Position numbers and translations under genes: made by a program. Positions 976 through 43,831 of a stretch of DNA of 52,607 nt are shown one piece after another (within the stretch, counting starts at the first letter, position 1; every line of letters begins with the position of its first letter). The notes under the pieces were generated by a model. It was not told where the DNA came from and did no database searches. It saw only the letters and a list, made by a program, of their open reading frames with translations. This DNA comes from Patescibacteria group bacterium. Its GTDB lineage: Bacteria > Patescibacteriota > Patescibacteriia > UBA2591 > CALHIP01. Where the stretch lies: the NCBI GenBank assembly GCA_026417895.1, contig JAOACJ010000002.1:1-52607 (forward strand), written 5' to 3'.

Positions 976-1491
976 GAAACTCATTGAAATTTATTGAAAT
1001 TTATTGTTTTAGATTTATAAGTAGATTGAATGAAATTATTTAGCTTGATTGATAATCTTTCTGCGATTTCTCTAAATTTTTTATAATTACCACTTTCAAT
1101 TTTCTTGCGTTCTTTTAAAAGTTCTAACCAATGTTCAGTTGCTTCAGTAAGTGAAGCTCGGGCATTATAGAAAAATTTTATTTTCTCTAGAAAATGAAAT
1201 CTGCCATACCCCTCAGCAATATTCGCTCCGGTAGAATCAGCAGATTCAATAAATTGATTTCCTATTATTTTCTTATCTTGCCATGATAGATCTTGATAAA
1301 TTTCCCAGGCAATTTTTGAAAGTTCTCGTGCCAATTGATAAACATCTAAATCCTTTAATAAAATATATTTCTTTTTAATTTCCATATAATTCCATTGTTT
1401 TCCTTAAGTTTCTATCAATTTCTATTTCTATCTATTTCTATCTATTTCTATCAATTTCTATCAGTTTCTATCAGTTTCTATCAATCTCTAT
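976..1491 (-). repeat. Cassette A: four-helix-bundle gene flanked by inverted 10-bp repeat arrays
   Basis: The left arm (976-1006) contains tandem units of the type GAAAYTNATT on the plus strand. The right arm (about 1409-1491) contains about nine units of GAAAYTGATA on the minus strand. The arms are therefore inverted relative to each other and could pair in RNA, with the ORF in the loop. The left arm encodes the last residues of the four-helix-bundle protein. The right arm overlaps the TGA stop of the upstream 309-aa gene (1481-1483). This resembles the terminal complementary ends of 23S rRNA intervening sequences; the functional link is inference. Confidence 0.65.
981..1385 (-). CDS. Four helix bundle protein (S23 / 23S rRNA IVS-type family)
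   Basis: This 134-aa protein matches the S23/IVP four-helix-bundle family: it opens with DLDVYQLARELS and has the diagnostic SADSTGANIAEGYGRF segment near residues 48-63, then FYNARASLTEATEHWLELL. The family is encoded in intervening sequences of 23S rRNA in Leptospira and Coxiella, and the DGR accessory protein Avd has the same fold. The biochemical role is unknown; nucleic-acid binding is suspected. Here it is free-standing between two surface-protein genes inside the inverted repeats of cassette A. Its C-terminal codons are made of the left repeat. It is a different subtype from the copy at 6987-7358 (VYQLA versus VWQRA). Confidence 0.85.
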   Translation of the reverse strand: MEIKKKYILLKDLDVYQLARELSKIAWEIYQDLSWQDKKIIGNQFIESADSTGANIAEGYGRFHFLEKIKFFYNARASLTEATEHWLELLKERKKIESGNYKKFREIAERLSIKLNNFIQSTYKSKTINFNKFQ

Positions 1492-5954: not shown

Positions 5955-6389
5955 TTATCTCTTTGTTTTTTTGATCCATTGCATAATTTCTGACTCTTCG
6001 CCCAATTTTTCCCAAAAAAGAACGGCCGAACGATTAATAAAGAGAACATTATCCGTTAAAGTCAAATTATCATCCCCTCTTCTGACTAATTGATAAGCCT
6101 TCTGGGGTGAAACCTGCATTTCTTCTCCGGATGAAATTGACTGAGAGGTTGGTGTAAAAGTTTCTAAGAAAAAAACATCTTTTAAGACCAGAATGTCTGA
6201 ATTTATTTTTTTTATCTGACCAAAATAAACTTCTTTGTTGATTAGATAAACAGCATAATAGTTGTTTGATTCTTGATGAACTATTCTATCTCCTAATTTA
6301 CTTAAGGAAGAATAAAAAATTACTAAGAGAATATTAAAAATTGTTAGAGTAATAATGAGGATAAGTAAAGTATTTTTTGTTTTCAGCAT
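5955..6389 (-). CDS. Small membrane protein, LSm/SH3-like domain suspected (paralogue of 8271-8666)
   Basis: I take the ATG at 6389 (MLKTKNTLL, 144 aa) as start because the longer reading frame from 6437 overlaps the upstream gene and adds a non-hydrophobic tail before the membrane helix. One N-terminal helix is followed by a conserved beta block (YYAVYLINKEVYFGQIKK, then VLKDVFFLE) and a distal block (LFINRSAVLFWEKLGEESE). Both blocks recur in the 131-aa protein at 8271-8666 with the same order. The first block looks like a small beta barrel of the Sm/SH3 kind, but that is inference. It probably serves in envelope assembly near the surface proteins. Confidence 0.6.
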   Translation of the reverse strand: MLKTKNTLLILIITLTIFNILLVIFYSSLSKLGDRIVHQESNNYYAVYLINKEVYFGQIKKINSDILVLKDVFFLETFTPTSQSISSGEEMQVSPQKAYQLVRRGDDNLTLTDNVLFINRSAVLFWEKLGEESEIMQWIKKTKR

Positions 6390-6418
6390 AATAATATTAT
6401 AATAATATTTGAATTTAT

Positions 6419-6943
6419 TTATCGTGGATTGTACCAAGAACCAGTTTCGCCTTGATCAGCGATAAAATAATAATATTGTCCGGCTGATAAAGATAAACTG
6501 GTTAAATCAATTTCTTTTTTAATTTTTTGTCCTCTTTGACAGGGAAAAGCTTTATTGAATTTAGCCAGAGTCGGATCTCGACGATAATCATCTTGTTGAT
6601 TAAAAATTAAAATTGCATAGTAGTCATCCTGACAACGACCGGTTAAATTTATTTTCTTTGTCTCAGGATAGCGAAAAACAGAAAATTTCTCTGGTGCCGG
6701 AAATTGCCAAAGGTCAGGCGAAGAAGAAGTAGAGGTAATATGGTTGACACTAAAACCTTGACTCAAGGGAGAAATTTTTAATTGATTTTTATTCTCGTGT
6801 CTTGTTTCTGGCAGCCAAAATTTTATTCGCCAGAAAACAAAAATCAAAGACAGAGCAAAAATGGCCAAGGAAAGGCCTAAAATTTTATAACTCTTTTTTA
6901 AGATTAGCTGGTAGCTGGTAGGTTGTAGCTTTTTAGTCGGCAT
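6419..6943 (-). CDS. Membrane-anchored protein with C-terminal domain shared with the 508-aa protein
   Basis: This 174-aa protein has a short cytoplasmic start, one membrane helix (about 20-42) and an extracytoplasmic domain. The domain pattern (LTGRCQDDYYAILIF, then DYRRDP, FNKAFPC, AGQYYYFIAD, GSWY) also ends the 508-aa protein at 13333-14859 (LQGQCQRKYFVVLIY, DYEKNP, YNKAFPC, AGIYYLLVAE, GPWY). Two cysteines are conserved. The first residues (LQPTSYQLI) are encoded by the left inverted arm of cassette B, so the insertion seems to have supplied the start codon and leader of this gene. There is no other Met before the helix. Confidence 0.6.
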   Translation of the reverse strand: MPTKKLQPTSYQLILKKSYKILGLSLAIFALSLIFVFWRIKFWLPETRHENKNQLKISPLSQGFSVNHITSTSSSPDLWQFPAPEKFSVFRYPETKKINLTGRCQDDYYAILIFNQQDDYRRDPTLAKFNKAFPCQRGQKIKKEIDLTSLSLSAGQYYYFIADQGETGSWYNPR

Positions 6944-6981
6944 AAGATGATTATTCTCTAAATAAGATGATCATTCTCTAA
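6942..6981. repeat. Tandem duplication of a 20-bp unit inside cassette B
   Basis: Two adjacent 20-bp copies (6942-6961 and 6962-6981), each starting ATAAGATGAT and ending TTCTCTAA, differ at one position. They lie between the start codon of the 174-aa gene and the stop of the four-helix-bundle gene. The recent duplication suggests the cassette edges are unstable. Confidence 0.8.
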
Positions 6982-6986
6982 GTTTT

Positions 6987-7358
6987 TTAAGTTTTTAGAG
7001 AGCTAATCATTTTATTTAACATTTTCATCGTTTCTTCTAAAAGAGTATCTACTCTAGCAAAATTCGCTCTCTTGCCAAATGGTAATTTCTTAACAATTTC
7101 AATTTGGGTTTCTAATTCTGCGCCAGAACCATAGGCGATATTTAAAAACTGACAAAAATCTTTTCTCGTCCCCCTCCGTCTTCCTTCGGCAATATTTGAG
7201 GGAATAGAAATCGCTGCTCGTCTCATTTGCGAAACTAATCCATAGAACTCTTCTTTGGGAAATTTGCTAGTTAATTCATAGACAGCAATTACTAAATCTA
7301 CTGCCCGTTGCCAAACAATCAAATCTCGATAGGAATAAATTTTACCTTCTCCTCCCAT
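6987..7358 (-). CDS. Four helix bundle protein (S23 / 23S rRNA IVS-type family)
   Basis: This 123-aa protein is a near-canonical member: YRDLIVWQRAVDLV at residues 9-22, FPKEEFYGLVSQMRRAA, then the hallmark SIPSNIAEGRRRG near 52-64 and GSGAELETQ near 77-85. Length fits the family (about 115-125 aa). Relatives occur inside 23S rRNA intervening sequences; the fold matches DGR Avd. No reverse transcriptase or variable-repeat target is present in the window, so a DGR role is not supported. The gene is the cargo of cassette B between the methyltransferase and the 174-aa gene. Confidence 0.92.
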   Translation of the reverse strand: MGGEGKIYSYRDLIVWQRAVDLVIAVYELTSKFPKEEFYGLVSQMRRAAISIPSNIAEGRRRGTRKDFCQFLNIAYGSGAELETQIEIVKKLPFGKRANFARVDTLLEETMKMLNKMISSLKT

Positions 7359-7391
7359 AACCTAATAAGCTACAAGCTAAGAAGCTACAAG

Positions 7392-7904
7392 CTAATCCTT
7401 TATCACTTTTAATTCAACTAAGATATCTGAAACGACGTTCCAATAGTGCTGGGCAGCAAATTGGCGAGCTTCTTCGGTTTTTTTATCCCAAGGTGGATTA
7501 AAGAAAACCATAATTTGTTGAATTTTGAAATTTGATTTGATTGGATAATGGTCAAGCTTGTTGGCTTTCCGCCAATCACGGTCAAAGTAGAGAAAGGTCG
7601 CTTCTGAAATGGCTCTTTTATGCGTTGGATCCTGCCAAGCACGAATGGAAGTATAGTAAGGACATAAAAAAGTCACCTTAGCTCCATCCTCACAAATCCG
7701 CCAGACTTCATCCATAAATTGCATTAAATCAGAAACGTGTTCAAGATAATGTGAACAGTAAACTTCTTCAACCGAATCATCTTCAAATGGCTGCCAAGGG
7801 TATTCCTCTAAATTCCAGACAAAATCAATACCTGGACCGGGGACAATATCTACTCCTTTAAACCCTGGTCTTTTATTTTGTCCACAAGCAATATCTAATT
7901 TCAT
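7392..7904 (-). CDS. Class I SAM-dependent methyltransferase-like protein
   Basis: This 170-aa protein begins MKLDIACGQNKRPGFKGVDIV, an SAM-binding motif I (D-I-A-C-G) with a following acidic strand end. The later DDSVEEVYCSHYLEHV matches the Methyltransf_11 post-II region, and MDEVWRICEDGAKVTFLCPYY matches the helix and strand after it. The protein is short; no substrate domain is visible. In CPR and phage genomes such enzymes often sit with sugar or surface-polymer genes. Here it lies among surface proteins and near the glycosyltransferase at 8797-9516, so modification of a surface glycan or protein is a reasonable guess only. Its stop codon lies in the right arm of cassette B. Confidence 0.75.
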   Translation of the reverse strand: MKLDIACGQNKRPGFKGVDIVPGPGIDFVWNLEEYPWQPFEDDSVEEVYCSHYLEHVSDLMQFMDEVWRICEDGAKVTFLCPYYTSIRAWQDPTHKRAISEATFLYFDRDWRKANKLDHYPIKSNFKIQQIMVFFNPPWDKKTEEARQFAAQHYWNVVSDILVELKVIKD

Positions 7905-7910
7905 AAATCT

Positions 7911-8269
7911 TTTACGAAATATGAATTTTTACCAATATACTAATATAAATTGACTATTCTTTTAAAATGAAGATTCCGAGGCGCAAAATAATAAAAAATC
8001 AAAGTAGTTAGCGCCAACTCTTTCATTATTGTAAAGAAGCGGTAGATAAACCTGTTCAACCTGTTCTTGGAATTTTAATTTCGCGTTTTTTAAAGAGAGA
8101 GCAACTGCTCTTTGATATACTTTTTCACTTAAACCATAACCTAATCGATTATAAACATCAAAAAGTATGCCGATAATTTGGTAACACAATTCAGGATAAA
8201 TTAAGTCTTCACGTCTTAATAATTTTTTACTCATTATTCGTAAATTCGTATTAATTCGTATTTCGTAAA
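7911..8269 (-). repeat. Cassette C: GxxExxY remnant flanked by TTTACGAAATAYGAATT inverted arms
   Basis: The left arm 7911-7927 (TTTACGAAATATGAATT) and the reverse complement of 8253-8269 (TTTACGAAATACGAATT) match at 16 of 17 positions. The left arm begins 6 bp after the methyltransferase start codon end, and the right arm ends one base before the stop codon of the 131-aa gene (8271). The enclosed ORF is a truncated GxxExxY gene. More ATTCGTA units fill the right side (8236-8262). Confidence 0.75.
7962..8234 (-). pseudogene. Truncated GxxExxY protein gene
   Basis: The 90-aa product begins as a normal GxxExxY family member: LIYPELCYQIIGILFDVYNRLGYGLSEKVYQRAVALSL carries the G-x-x-E-x-x-Y motif (residues about 32-40), followed by the QEQVEQVYLPLLYNNERVG and DFLLF strands. 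Family members are usually about 120-130 aa and continue with an E-L-K-containing PDDEXK-like core. Here the frame ends with CASESSF just after the DF strand, so the putative catalytic E-x-K is lost. I find no ELK-like continuation in the three minus-strand frames down to 7905. It is a decayed cargo of cassette C, not likely active. Confidence 0.75.
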
Positions 8270-8270
8270 G

Positions 8271-8666
8271 TTATTGTCCTCTGGCTCTTAAAATACTTTT
8301 GACTACTTCTGCTTCTGGGGTTAGTTTTTCCCAAAAAAGGACGACCTGACGATTGATAAAGAAAATATCATCGGTCAGCATCGTTGTATCGCGCGTACTT
8401 CTTTTAATCAAGTTAAAAACTCCTTGCTGGTCCGGCGATGGCTCTAGAAAATAAACTTCTTTCATAACAATTGTTTCGGCATTAACAGATTTAATTTGAC
8501 CAAAATAAACTTGACCATTGGTCAGATGAACAGCATACCAATCAGGTGTCTGGTTTAAAATCTGTTTTTTGAGAGTAAAAAGACGGCCGGAAAAAATTAG
8601 CCAGAAAAGCAGATTCAAAACAACTAAAACAATAACGATCAATAAAATGTTTTTTTTGTTGAACAT
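8271..8666 (-). CDS. Small membrane protein, LSm/SH3-like domain suspected (paralogue of 5955-6389)
   Basis: This 131-aa protein has one N-terminal membrane helix (about 6-27), then WYAVHLTNGQVYFGQIKS, VMKEVYFLEP and, near the C-terminus, IFFINRQVVLFWEKLTPEAE. The same blocks occur in the same order in the gene at 5955-6389, so the two are paralogues separated by cassettes B and C and two other genes. The HLTNGQVYFGQI strand pair resembles small Sm/SH3 barrels, which is inference. It lies between the glycosyltransferase-like gene and the methyltransferase on the same strand. Confidence 0.6.
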   Translation of the reverse strand: MFNKKNILLIVIVLVVLNLLFWLIFSGRLFTLKKQILNQTPDWYAVHLTNGQVYFGQIKSVNAETIVMKEVYFLEPSPDQQGVFNLIKRSTRDTTMLTDDIFFINRQVVLFWEKLTPEAEVVKSILRARGQ

Positions 8667-8688: not shown

Positions 8689-8782
8689 TTTACGAAAGAC
8701 GGATTTTTACGAATATACGAATTAATAATAATTAATAATCTGGTACTCATTCGTCAATTCGGATCGATTCGTATTTCGTAAA
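8689..8782. repeat. ORF-less inverted-repeat element of the cassette C type
   Basis: The left arm 8689-8704 (TTTACGAAAGACGGAT) matches the reverse complement of 8767-8782 (TTTACGAAATACGAAT) at 14 of 16 positions, and these arms are the same family as those of cassette C about 420 bp away. Only about 60 bp lie between the arms and there is no ORF. It occupies the gap between the start of the 131-aa gene and the stop of the glycosyltransferase-like gene. It could be an empty or deleted cassette. Confidence 0.7.
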
Positions 8783-8796
8783 GTAAATTAATTATT

Positions 8797-9516
8797 TTAC
8801 CAAACAATATCCATCTGAGGGTCATAATGGCCAACTCTAACCCTGGTATCACAGGCAACTTTATAGCCGAATTGCCGAATTTTTTCAAAGAAATATAAAT
8901 CTTGAGTATAAATTTTTGAACCGCGTTGTGGATCATATTCCTGACAAGTTTTGAACCAAGGCTTTTCTATCCGCGGATCTTTAAAAAGTTCTAGACGAAA
9001 TAAAGTAAAACCCATTCCTAAGCCATTACAAGGCTGAATTTCCATTCTTGGAGGCTGGGGTCGGAAATTCATTTCTGGATCATTAGGATCGCCATAAATC
9101 ATTGGCTGACCACCCTCACCTTTTGTCCAATACAAACCACCGATAACATCATACTTATCCATATTTTCATAGAGTTTTAGAAGTCCGTCTGGCGGTGGGA
9201 GATTATCTTCCTCAAGAGTTAAAATATATTTCCACTTAGAAAGTTCTGGATTCGCTAGAATAAGTTCAATGGCAGCATTATAAGCTTCACCAACCTCCAT
9301 GCCAATCATAAAAATGCGAGTGAATTTTTGATTCATTGGCGTAATTAACCCCATCCAACTTTGGGCTGCTTTGGCAGGAATCATGCCCCGGGTGGGAACA
9401 ATACAAATAGTAGACAAGTCCTGATAAGCCTTGCCCTTTTCCAAACGTTCAATACTCTTTAGGATATTAGCATTGTGTGTTCCTTGATAATTTTCAATGA
9501 CAATCTGCGGTTTCAT
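8797..9516 (-). CDS. Glycosyltransferase-like protein (GT-A type)
   Basis: This 239-aa protein has a GT-A-like layout: an early strand (STICIVPTRGMIPAKAAQSW), a helix with AYNAAIELIL and the acidic metal motif YILTLEEDNLPP near residues 109-120. A second half follows with GGLYWTKGEGG, CNGLGMGFTLFR and a C-terminal YTQDLYFFEKIRQFGYKVACD. No membrane or signal segment is present, so it acts in the cytoplasm. Similar proteins occur in phages and uncultured bacteria. It is placed just after the giant beta-repeat protein gene in the same direction, so glycosylation of that product or its partners is possible but unproven. Confidence 0.65.
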   Translation of the reverse strand: MKPQIVIENYQGTHNANILKSIERLEKGKAYQDLSTICIVPTRGMIPAKAAQSWMGLITPMNQKFTRIFMIGMEVGEAYNAAIELILANPELSKWKYILTLEEDNLPPPDGLLKLYENMDKYDVIGGLYWTKGEGGQPMIYGDPNDPEMNFRPQPPRMEIQPCNGLGMGFTLFRLELFKDPRIEKPWFKTCQEYDPQRGSKIYTQDLYFFEKIRQFGYKVACDTRVRVGHYDPQMDIVW

Positions 9517-41263: not shown

Positions 41264-43831
41264 TTATAAATTTTTCTCTAAACCAATATCCTGTCTGGCT
41301 GGTACGCCGAGTTGAGAGCGTTCTAGAATTTCTTTTTCAACAATAGCCTTTGGTCGACCATATTTCAAACGAGAAATTTGACGAATAGCTTCGGCAATTT
41401 TTCGATCACCGACCTTTGGTGGTAAGGTGACCATATTAAAAGGTCGAGTGGGTTGATTATTCACTAAAAGCTTGACATAGGCATTAAATTTTTCCACATT
41501 AATCAAATCATATTCATTAAAGACTGGTTTATATTCTTTAGCTAAAATTTCCGCATCCTCAATACCAATTTTAAAAGTAATCATCGTGCCAACCGTGCCT
41601 AAAACTGCATCGCGAATCCTTGCCTCGCCGCCACCGCCGCCAACTACCGAAGAAGAAACTAACAGTTGTCCTAAATACTGATGAGCCATAGTAAGATTTA
41701 ATCGGTATTTTCTTGCCTCTGATAAAATGGTGGCAATGGAATCAGTAATAAAGTTCTGAAACTCGTCAATATATAAATAAAAATCTTTTCTCTCAGCTTC
41801 GGGTAAGTCAGCTCGTGCCATAGCCGCCATTTGTAATTTTGAAACGATAACTAAACCTAAAAGATTGGCGTTAACTTCACCGATTTTTCCTTTTGAAAGA
41901 TTGACTAATAAAATTTTTTGTTTATCCATCACTTCGCGAAAATCAATACCTGAATGAGCTTGGCCAATAATGTTTCTCATCATTTCATTCTCGACAAAGC
42001 GACCAACCTTAGAAATCAAATAACCTAACATTTCTGATTTATGAAACTCGGTCGTTCTAGCCATTTCTTTTTCCCAAAAAGCGCGAACAATCGGATCTTT
42101 TAATTTGGCTGTCCAGGCTTTAGCATAATCGGGATCAGAAAACATTCTGGGGATTTCAGCAATTGTGCCTGGATTTTCTCGATCGGCCATTAAAGTTAAC
42201 ATTACGTTTCTCATATTATGTTCAAACATTGGACCAATAATTTCTGGCGGAAAGAGTTTATAAAAAATGGCAATCATTTCTTGAACAGCAAAGTCTTTCT
42301 GTTCTTCGGTTTTTGCTTCTAACATATTTAAACCGATTGGTCTTTCCGTATCTGAAGCATCAAAAAGAATGACATCTTCAACCCTTTCTCGAGGAACCGA
42401 ACCTAAGATATCTTCAATTAAATCACCGTGTGGATCAATTACTCCAACACCTTCGCCATTGCAAATATCTTGTTTGACCATATTAGAAATCAAAACAGTT
42501 TTGCCGGTACCAGTTTTACCGATAATATAAACGTGACGACGGCGATCATCTCTTTTTATTCTAATCAAAGTTTCTTTACCACGATAGATATTTTTACCTA
42601 AAATAATTCCTTCTTTTGGCACTTCAACTGGCGCTGGGGCCTTTCGTGCGATCAGCCAACGAATGTTGGGTGTCTCAGTCGTCGGCAAAGGAAAATGGAA
42701 AATACTCGTTAATTCTTCAGTATTTAAAATAAAAGACCTTTTTTCGTCAATATTTCGATAAATAAAATCCTGACAAATTGTTTCTGGTCGCGAGACAAAA
42801 TGAGGTTGAAAGCCATTACCATATTCATAAATAGTATACTGATGAAATGAATTAGTAATCGTTTCTAGATAACGTTGAGCCTGTTCTTTTGTCTTCGCTG
42901 AAACAATAATTCTAATGTTAATATCGAGACCGGCTTTTGAATTTTTGTTTTCAATACTTTTAACAATTTCTTGATCCATCGGCGAAAGTTGTTTTGGTTT
43001 TTCTTCTATTTCCTTCTCTTTCTTTTTTTCCTTTGGCAAAGCATAAGTTGTAAAATCAGCCATAAATTTGACTAATGGATTGGCGCCGGCCGCTCTCATC
43101 GCTTGTTTTAAATTTTTTCCCTGCTGCATTTCTCGAGCGACCTTGGCGGGAAAACGATGCCATTCTTTTTTTGCCGAACGAGCTATAATTTGAATAGCAG
43201 CCGAATCACCTTCTTCTATTTTAGTTAGAGAATTGGTGATGGCATTTAAGGGATCAACATTTAAGTTAAGATAGGTTTTAATTGGCAAAATGTGAGATTT
43301 TTTTAAAGTTAAAAAACTAGCTAAAATGACACTCTTGGGCGAAAAAAGATTATAATCTTCAACCTCTTCAATTTGGGCACTGGGAAATTGAGCATGAATT
43401 TGTTGCTCAGTATAATTAGCAAGATAGCGTGGCACGACCATATAAAAAGAAATGAGACCTTCTTTATCTCTGACAATTTCAAGTGAGAAATGGTCATGTC
43501 GGCCAAAGAAAAAGGTTTTCAATGACCTGTCGACTGGGAGACCACCTAAATTATCTAAAAAGGTTTCAGCCGGGCTCAAATAGTCTTTAATTTCTTTTTT
43601 TTCTTTTTCTTCTTCGAGTGATTCTTTGGGTAGAGTAATTAAAAAAACAACCTTATTAAAAATTTGTTGATAAAAACCAATTTTTCTGAAAATTATTCTT
43701 AAGCAACTGATGAAAAGAATGAGAGACAGTAAAATGATGCCAAAATAAATTAAAAATTTTCCCAATAAGAGCAGGTTGGCGGCTTGAGAAATTTCTGGAA
43801 GGTCTGTTTGAAGTGTTGGCAACGATCTCAT
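41264..43831 (-). CDS. VirB4/TraD-like conjugative-type ATPase (DUF87/TraM-recognition)
   Basis: This 855-aa protein has an N-terminal membrane helix (about 24-48), a beta/helical domain (about 80-400), then a P-loop ATPase: Walker A IGKTGTGKT near 434-442, GVIDPHGDLIEDIL, a Walker B of the type LYIDEFQNF and a TMAHQYLGQL motif. The layout matches type IV secretion coupling or VirB4-type proteins widespread in CPR genomes, where they occur without the rest of a conjugation apparatus. It may drive DNA or pilus traffic; no relaxase, VirB6 or pilin gene is nearby. It is preceded by an anchor-like 175-aa protein. Confidence 0.88.
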   Translation of the reverse strand: MRSLPTLQTDLPEISQAANLLLLGKFLIYFGIILLSLILFISCLRIIFRKIGFYQQIFNKVVFLITLPKESLEEEKEKKEIKDYLSPAETFLDNLGGLPVDRSLKTFFFGRHDHFSLEIVRDKEGLISFYMVVPRYLANYTEQQIHAQFPSAQIEEVEDYNLFSPKSVILASFLTLKKSHILPIKTYLNLNVDPLNAITNSLTKIEEGDSAAIQIIARSAKKEWHRFPAKVAREMQQGKNLKQAMRAAGANPLVKFMADFTTYALPKEKKKEKEIEEKPKQLSPMDQEIVKSIENKNSKAGLDINIRIIVSAKTKEQAQRYLETITNSFHQYTIYEYGNGFQPHFVSRPETICQDFIYRNIDEKRSFILNTEELTSIFHFPLPTTETPNIRWLIARKAPAPVEVPKEGIILGKNIYRGKETLIRIKRDDRRRHVYIIGKTGTGKTVLISNMVKQDICNGEGVGVIDPHGDLIEDILGSVPRERVEDVILFDASDTERPIGLNMLEAKTEEQKDFAVQEMIAIFYKLFPPEIIGPMFEHNMRNVMLTLMADRENPGTIAEIPRMFSDPDYAKAWTAKLKDPIVRAFWEKEMARTTEFHKSEMLGYLISKVGRFVENEMMRNIIGQAHSGIDFREVMDKQKILLVNLSKGKIGEVNANLLGLVIVSKLQMAAMARADLPEAERKDFYLYIDEFQNFITDSIATILSEARKYRLNLTMAHQYLGQLLVSSSVVGGGGGEARIRDAVLGTVGTMITFKIGIEDAEILAKEYKPVFNEYDLINVEKFNAYVKLLVNNQPTRPFNMVTLPPKVGDRKIAEAIRQISRLKYGRPKAIVEKEILERSQLGVPARQDIGLEKNL

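Follow-up and report, generated by a model that had tools for sequence, protein, structure and literature searches.

A gene-less palindromic element in a Patescibacteria genome, probably derived by internal deletion from a GxxExxY nuclease element

The window analyzed here, a stretch of 52,607 nucleotides from a Patescibacteria genome of 650 kb in 18 contigs, carries a palindromic element of 94 bp without a gene at positions 8689-8782 (no strand assigned). We propose that it is non-autonomous and arose from a gene-bearing element by internal deletion, and that a GxxExxY nuclease acting on the arms formerly mobilized such copies; we put the probability of this reading at about 0.6. The element was recognized as an inverted repeat, by BLAST, by a profile match, and by its folding.

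The left arm (8689-8727, plus strand) consists of the units TTTACGAA-AGACGGAT-TTTTACGAAT-ATACGAAT, and the right arm (8744-8782, minus strand) reads TTTACGAA-ATACGAAT-CGATCCGAAT-TGACGAAT on its own strand; together they form inverted repeat I3. Each arm is 39 nt long, the two are 74% complementary, and they enclose a loop of 16 nt. The initial annotation had described the arms by their outer 16-mers, which we recovered as TTTACGAAAGACGGAT at 8689-8704 on the plus strand (14 of 16 matching) and TTTACGAAATACGAAT at 8767-8782 on the minus strand (16 of 16). The 62 bp between these 16-mers agree with the approximately 60 bp given there as enclosed, but the true arms are longer than 16 nt and the loop is correspondingly small. 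The element is also free of ORFs, as had been claimed: none of at least 60 aa lies within it, and a mechanical 60-aa ORF (8754-8936) merely overlaps the right arm. Folded as a single strand, the element reached -17 kcal/mol as DNA (z = -3.1 compared with shuffles) and -21.7 kcal/mol as RNA (z = -2.6).

The 16-mer alone is weak evidence, whereas the whole structure lies far beyond chance. With up to three mismatches allowed, the 16-mer matched four times in the window, where 1.45 matches were expected, a count that 4 of 100 shuffles attained. The genome-wide tally proposed in the initial annotation returned 22 matches at the same threshold versus 23 for the reversed control; because this count was uninformative by itself, we relied instead on BLAST, on a profile, and on a palindrome pattern with gaps. 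BLAST with the element found the element itself, the arm and ORF start of a nearby cassette (cassette C; E = 1.4e-9), and a copy on another contig, C11 (E = 1.6e-5). The profile was derived solely from the Candidatus Staskawiczbacteria isolate nzgw417 (JAHFKU), with 11 gene-less sequences, each 86-90 nt long, and matched positions 8691-8780 end to end (E = 1.3e-12). The C11 copy (G000:C11, approximately 41538-41610; L006:1501-1573) is a second compact, gene-less copy in the window's own genome, G000, and matches the same profile (E = 1.3e-8). It lies between divergent genes, one membrane-metalloprotease-like and the other a short 68-aa gene resembling ribosomal protein L28.

Cassette C (7911-8269, minus strand) shares the arms of the gene-less copy and is a gene-bearing element, now decayed. 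Its arms (7911-7945 and 8235-8269; inverted repeat I2) are 83% complementary, with a score above that of all shuffles, and its end at 8269 is 419 bp from the gene-less copy, in agreement with the roughly 420 bp reported before. Between the arms lies a truncated GxxExxY gene (7962-8234, minus strand) that matches TIGR04256 with 50 bits (cut-off 35) and PF13366 (PDDEXK_3) with 55.3 bits (cut-off 22), covering model positions 1-67 of 117 only. Model positions 68-117, which include the E-x-K and Q-x3-Y part of the active site, are absent, and the nuclease site is not intact. Translation revealed the C-terminal GxxExxY tail, FKRIVNLY with its stop, in a different frame just before the arm (7940-7966, minus strand), indicating that the middle of cassette C, with the E-x-K and Q-x3-Y part, has been deleted. 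Cassette C is the sole GxxExxY match in its genome, which has no intact copy. Because this one gene is truncated, both copies in the window's genome are probably immobile relics.

Across 63 GxxExxY proteins, Glu-36 (E36), D75, K87, Q99, and Y103 are invariant and E85 is near-invariant; we take these residues to be a RecB-like PD-(D/E)XK site with Q-x3-Y. An AlphaFold model of the protein (pLDDT 94) had Cas4 and lambda exonuclease as its nearest solved structures and was also near viral PD-(D/E)XK nucleases. On this modeling, GxxExxY, with approximately 130 aa, has a RecB/Cas4-like PD-(D/E)XK nuclease fold and is a predicted nuclease. T7 endonuclease I came up below significance in a profile search (E = 0.12) and was set aside. 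The GxxExxY family and the four-helix-bundle family described below are common proteins for which we know of no function.

Aligned with cassette C, the gene-less copy runs through the complete 5' arm, the start codon and the first codons of the GxxExxY ORF, jumps approximately 250 bp, and continues with the 3' arm. Its right arm is 89% identical to 8236-8271 (direct repeat D3). The ORF remnant (8732-8751, minus strand; ATGAGTA..A.ATTATTAA, including the start codon) corresponds to the first ~18 nt of the gene and, beyond the arm, is identical to cassette C at 17 of 20 positions (shuffle p = 0.001). Because both arms and the ORF start of cassette C are kept, the sequence comparison identifies the gene-less copy as an internal-deletion derivative of a GxxExxY element of the cassette C type. 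The initial annotation had left a choice between an empty site and a MITE-type derivative. We dropped the former, which is contradicted by both arms and the ORF remnant, since an empty site would have no arms. The latter is supported by the retained ORF start and by the other gene-less copies, but does not apply in the strict sense of a MITE, as there are neither target-site duplications nor a known transposase. In an empty-site comparison at the locus itself, the sole same-genus genome proved to lack the neighboring 239-aa gene.

The gene-less copy is intergenic and sits in a 130-bp gap between a 131-aa gene (8271-8666) and, upstream, a 239-aa gene (8797-9516), both of which are host genes on the minus strand. 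The 131-aa gene separates cassette C from the gene-less copy and is not cargo; domain profile searches gave it no family match above the cut-off. Its product and a 160-aa protein encoded in the same gene cluster (5955-6437) are membrane proteins and apparent paralogues, with common YFGQIK...FWEKL motifs. As a stretch of 900 bp holds both copies, which have the arm and the ORF start in common, a local tandem duplication of the cassette C flank, with the middle lost and no mobility, might account for them. However, the intervening 131-aa gene is not duplicated, the two arms are both retained in inverted order, a gene-less copy lies on another contig, and the multi-copy family of another genome matches end to end. 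We consider a local duplication very improbable. The outcome that the initial annotation had named as speaking against it, no further copies and a match explained by flank duplication only, was tested, and further copies exist.

The architecture was then followed through GxxExxY genes collected at two taxonomic levels, the order (26 genomes) and the class (381 genomes). Inverted arms exceeding 60 dinucleotide-level shuffles enclosed 105 of 122 GxxExxY loci, compared with 10 of 200 controls, which were ORFs of comparable length. These arms are built of approximately four short units with a period of 8-10 nt. TACGAAT is the unit in the window element, and the units vary by element (ACGAAT, ACAAAT, ACAGAT, ACGCGGAT, CCTTGATT, CTCTAAT, and others). 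Elements within one genome differ in their unit, whereas the left and right arms of an element agree, as in L037, L040, L043, and L045 of genome G005. On the protein tree, elements of one arm-unit class group together (46 changes versus a shuffled mean of 70, with 0 of 200 shuffles as low), which is also expected under simple common descent. Iterated-arm palindromes apparently represent a widespread class of mobile elements that has so far not been described; among open-access papers, we found nothing on GxxExxY as a mobile element.

A neighboring cassette in the window (6919-7394, minus strand; inverted repeats I9 and I10) contains a four-helix-bundle (23S_rRNA_IVP) gene at 6987-7358 between arms of AAGCTA(C/A) repeats. 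Four-helix-bundle genes outside rRNA (the window cassette, L025, L027, and L194-L213) likewise lay between iterated inverted arms, with 20 of 20 sampled genes showing them. These arms have a strict 7-nt period and other letters, in contrast to the 8-10 nt of the GxxExxY arms. A further four-helix-bundle gene in the window (981-1385) had no detectable inverted arms, its score falling within the shuffles. The four-helix-bundle domain also shares a single open frame with Lgt (C-terminal) and sits N-terminally in other proteins (L205, L202, L203, and L204).

Gene-less palindromes were counted with the pattern ACGAAT-N2..6-ACGAAT-N15..45-ATTCGT, which is too compact for a gene and stands for the single arm-unit class used for the association. 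It occurred in 75 of the 381 class genomes, with 528 matches including overlaps compared with 5 for the reversed control. Of the 98 genomes with GxxExxY, 55 had palindromes (56%), compared with 20 of the 283 genomes in which no GxxExxY was detected (7%; OR 16.8, p = 5e-23), and the link held within taxonomic families (OR 9.0, p = 1e-7). Matching between the units of the palindromes and those of the resident GxxExxY was moderate at a threshold of at least three palindromes (OR 4.8, p = 0.006) and not significant at thresholds of 1 or 5. Genome G149 has 48 pattern matches, yet its sampled GxxExxY genes have other arm units.

When 84,980 species genomes were searched with an exact palindrome, at least 118 stretches were returned, belonging to Patescibacteria, Bacteroidota, and Omnitrophota. 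This distribution, the 75 class genomes, and the C11 copy agree with the earlier claim that the arms occur independently of their cargo. A profile search of 838 kb revealed no complete GxxExxY gene near the 118 stretches, yielding only a decayed copy in a Nealsonbacteria contig (L308) and one weak match (L220); the gene-less copies are thus dispersed and not clustered with the gene. One Staskawiczbacteria genome, nzgw417, contains more than 10 near-identical gene-less copies in which the arms are nearly invariant and the spacers and loop are variable. In this family (L216, L236, L240, L266, L268, L273, and other JAHFKU stretches), the loop is often AAACG-N-CGTTT, and many copies stop a few bases short of an ATG.

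Y1 transposases were found in 203 of the 381 genomes and, overall, are associated with palindromes (OR 3.2, p = 2e-5). The element could accordingly be REP-like, with a Y1 (IS200/RAYT) transposase or some other host enzyme as its mover and GxxExxY as a passenger that tolerates the palindrome or takes advantage of it; the missing target-site duplications would fit single-strand transposition. However, the Y1 association was gone once GxxExxY was fixed (p = 0.12 and 0.14), whereas GxxExxY remained strong in both Y1 strata (OR 14-15). Moreover, G000 has no PF01797 match and thus no detected Y1 (HUH) transposase, and the arms specifically flank GxxExxY genes. We regard mobilization by Y1 or another such host enzyme as unlikely. 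The GxxExxY link also holds with or without the four-helix gene; with GxxExxY fixed, the four-helix gene, like Y1, loses most of its own association, and a weaker link between four-helix genes and palindromes persists in GxxExxY-negative genomes (p = 0.02). Among 89 related palindromes, there was no excess of target-site duplications directly at the ends (0 at k >= 3), and with offsets of up to 3 nt allowed, we noticed a slight excess of 6-mers (5 versus a null mean of 1.3). The lack of target-site duplications argues against a DDE transposase and a standard DDE-transposon MITE.

Complete GxxExxY elements were also found in frame within RecG (L033), leucyl-tRNA synthetase (LeuRS; L092), LepA/EF4 (L097), and a GT2 glycosyltransferase gene (L032), and one is fused N-terminally to MurB (L103). 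Comparison with solved structures places an interruption of 141 residues in LepA, where it falls between Aquifex residues 67 and 71, and one of 175 residues in LeuRS. LeuRS holds two further gene-less inserts in the same frame, one of them of approximately 32 residues. The recG gene contains an element in genome G007 and none in G008 of the same genus, with flanks that are 93-95% identical in DNA. The site measures 594 bp in G007 versus 45 bp in G008, a net difference of +549 bp or 183 codons, and the insertion is not clean, as approximately 10-15 loop codons also differ. We count this presence/absence polymorphism, as read from the two sequences, as support for mobility.

These insertions bear on the possibility that the element acts at the RNA level, either as a transcript stem cut by RNase III, as in the 23S rRNA IVS, or as an operon regulator, the gene-less copy being an mRNA hairpin. 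Its RNA fold is better than that of shuffles, it lies between same-strand genes, an ATG follows many of the copies at a distance of a few nt, and the Coxiella IVS are ORF elements with terminal inverted repeats that are excised by RNase III (PMC4990558). Nevertheless, complete and gene-less copies are in frame in LeuRS, LepA, and RecG, where cutting of the mRNA would destroy the gene, and the conserved feature among copies is the DNA units, not the stem length or loop. We judge an RNA element to be quite unlikely. The location of copies inside coding genes also conflicts with protein-binding operators, that is, with arms that are autoregulatory sites of GxxExxY and gene-less copies that form its regulon. 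Units iterated at about one helical turn and specific to each element would suit such sites, but presence or absence varies between close relatives and the nuclease active site is intact in complete GxxExxY copies, making the operator hypothesis hardly credible.

The preferred reading, mobilization by GxxExxY, can be set against several known systems. Rickettsial palindromic elements (RPE), ~100-150 bp in length, are palindromes that spread selfishly and occur in frame in protein genes unrelated to one another (PMC10969869; PMC6649704). By description, the relatives of the window element that lie in frame in LeuRS, RecG, LepA, and GT2 resemble them. They differ in that gene-bearing copies with the same arms exist here, the arms consist of approximately four iterated units, and the window copy is intergenic. 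RPE have been known in Rickettsia protein genes since 2000, and, to our knowledge, neither a mobilizer nor an autonomous, gene-bearing partner has been identified for them. Bacterial MITEs are short, gene-less, bounded by terminal inverted repeats, and derived by internal deletion from a gene-bearing element (PMC10969869). The window element is similar in being gene-less, with 94 bp and 39-nt arms, and in keeping both ends and the ORF start of cassette C, but it has no target-site duplications, and its partner is a GxxExxY PD-(D/E)XK nuclease instead of a known transposase. The 23S rRNA IVS consists of a small ORF between terminal inverted repeats and is thought to be selfish (PMC4990558), and a study on rRNA insertion sequences of CPR bacteria mentions a 23S_rRNA_IVP ORF. 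A small ORF between inverted repeats is common to both, and the four-helix-bundle genes of the class likewise lie between iterated arms outside rRNA, whereas GxxExxY elements have another cargo, another arm grammar, and a non-rRNA location. REP/BIME sequences with RAYT are comparable as dispersed short palindromes with a separate single-gene mobilizer; in contrast, the palindromes described here are longer, iterated, and associated with GxxExxY, not with a Y1 transposase.

A complete element comprises two inverted arms, of approximately four units each, around one GxxExxY nuclease gene. Most likely, the nuclease recognizes its own arm units, in the duplex or in an extruded hairpin, and then cuts; repair after cutting would copy or move the element. 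Gene-less palindromes that retain the arms would be mobilized in trans by GxxExxY. The sequences show the anatomy, the derivation from the cassette, the dispersal in many copies, the presence in frame within genes, the recG polymorphism, and the co-occurrence of palindromes with GxxExxY. Co-occurrence is not itself a mechanism, and we infer the role of GxxExxY as the mobilizing enzyme, the recognition of the arms, the cutting, and the direction of copying.

More broadly, and at somewhat less than even odds, these elements may form a new prokaryotic class that is common in Patescibacteria and extends to Bacteroidota and Omnitrophota, composed of iterated-arm palindromes with a minimal RecB/Cas4-like GxxExxY mobilizer and a lineage-specific arm unit. 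Elements with a four-helix-bundle protein and 7-nt units would be a sister class. Such elements would seed gene-less palindromes between genes and in frame in essential genes, and they might provide RPE-like coding palindromes with the autonomous partner that has been missing. The association found here links gene-less palindromes with one nuclease family and with defined pairs of arm unit and protein, so that the question of what mobilizes coding palindromes and what GxxExxY does becomes directly testable. It would also account for the insertions that interrupt, in frame, the LeuRS, LepA, and RecG genes of Patescibacteria.
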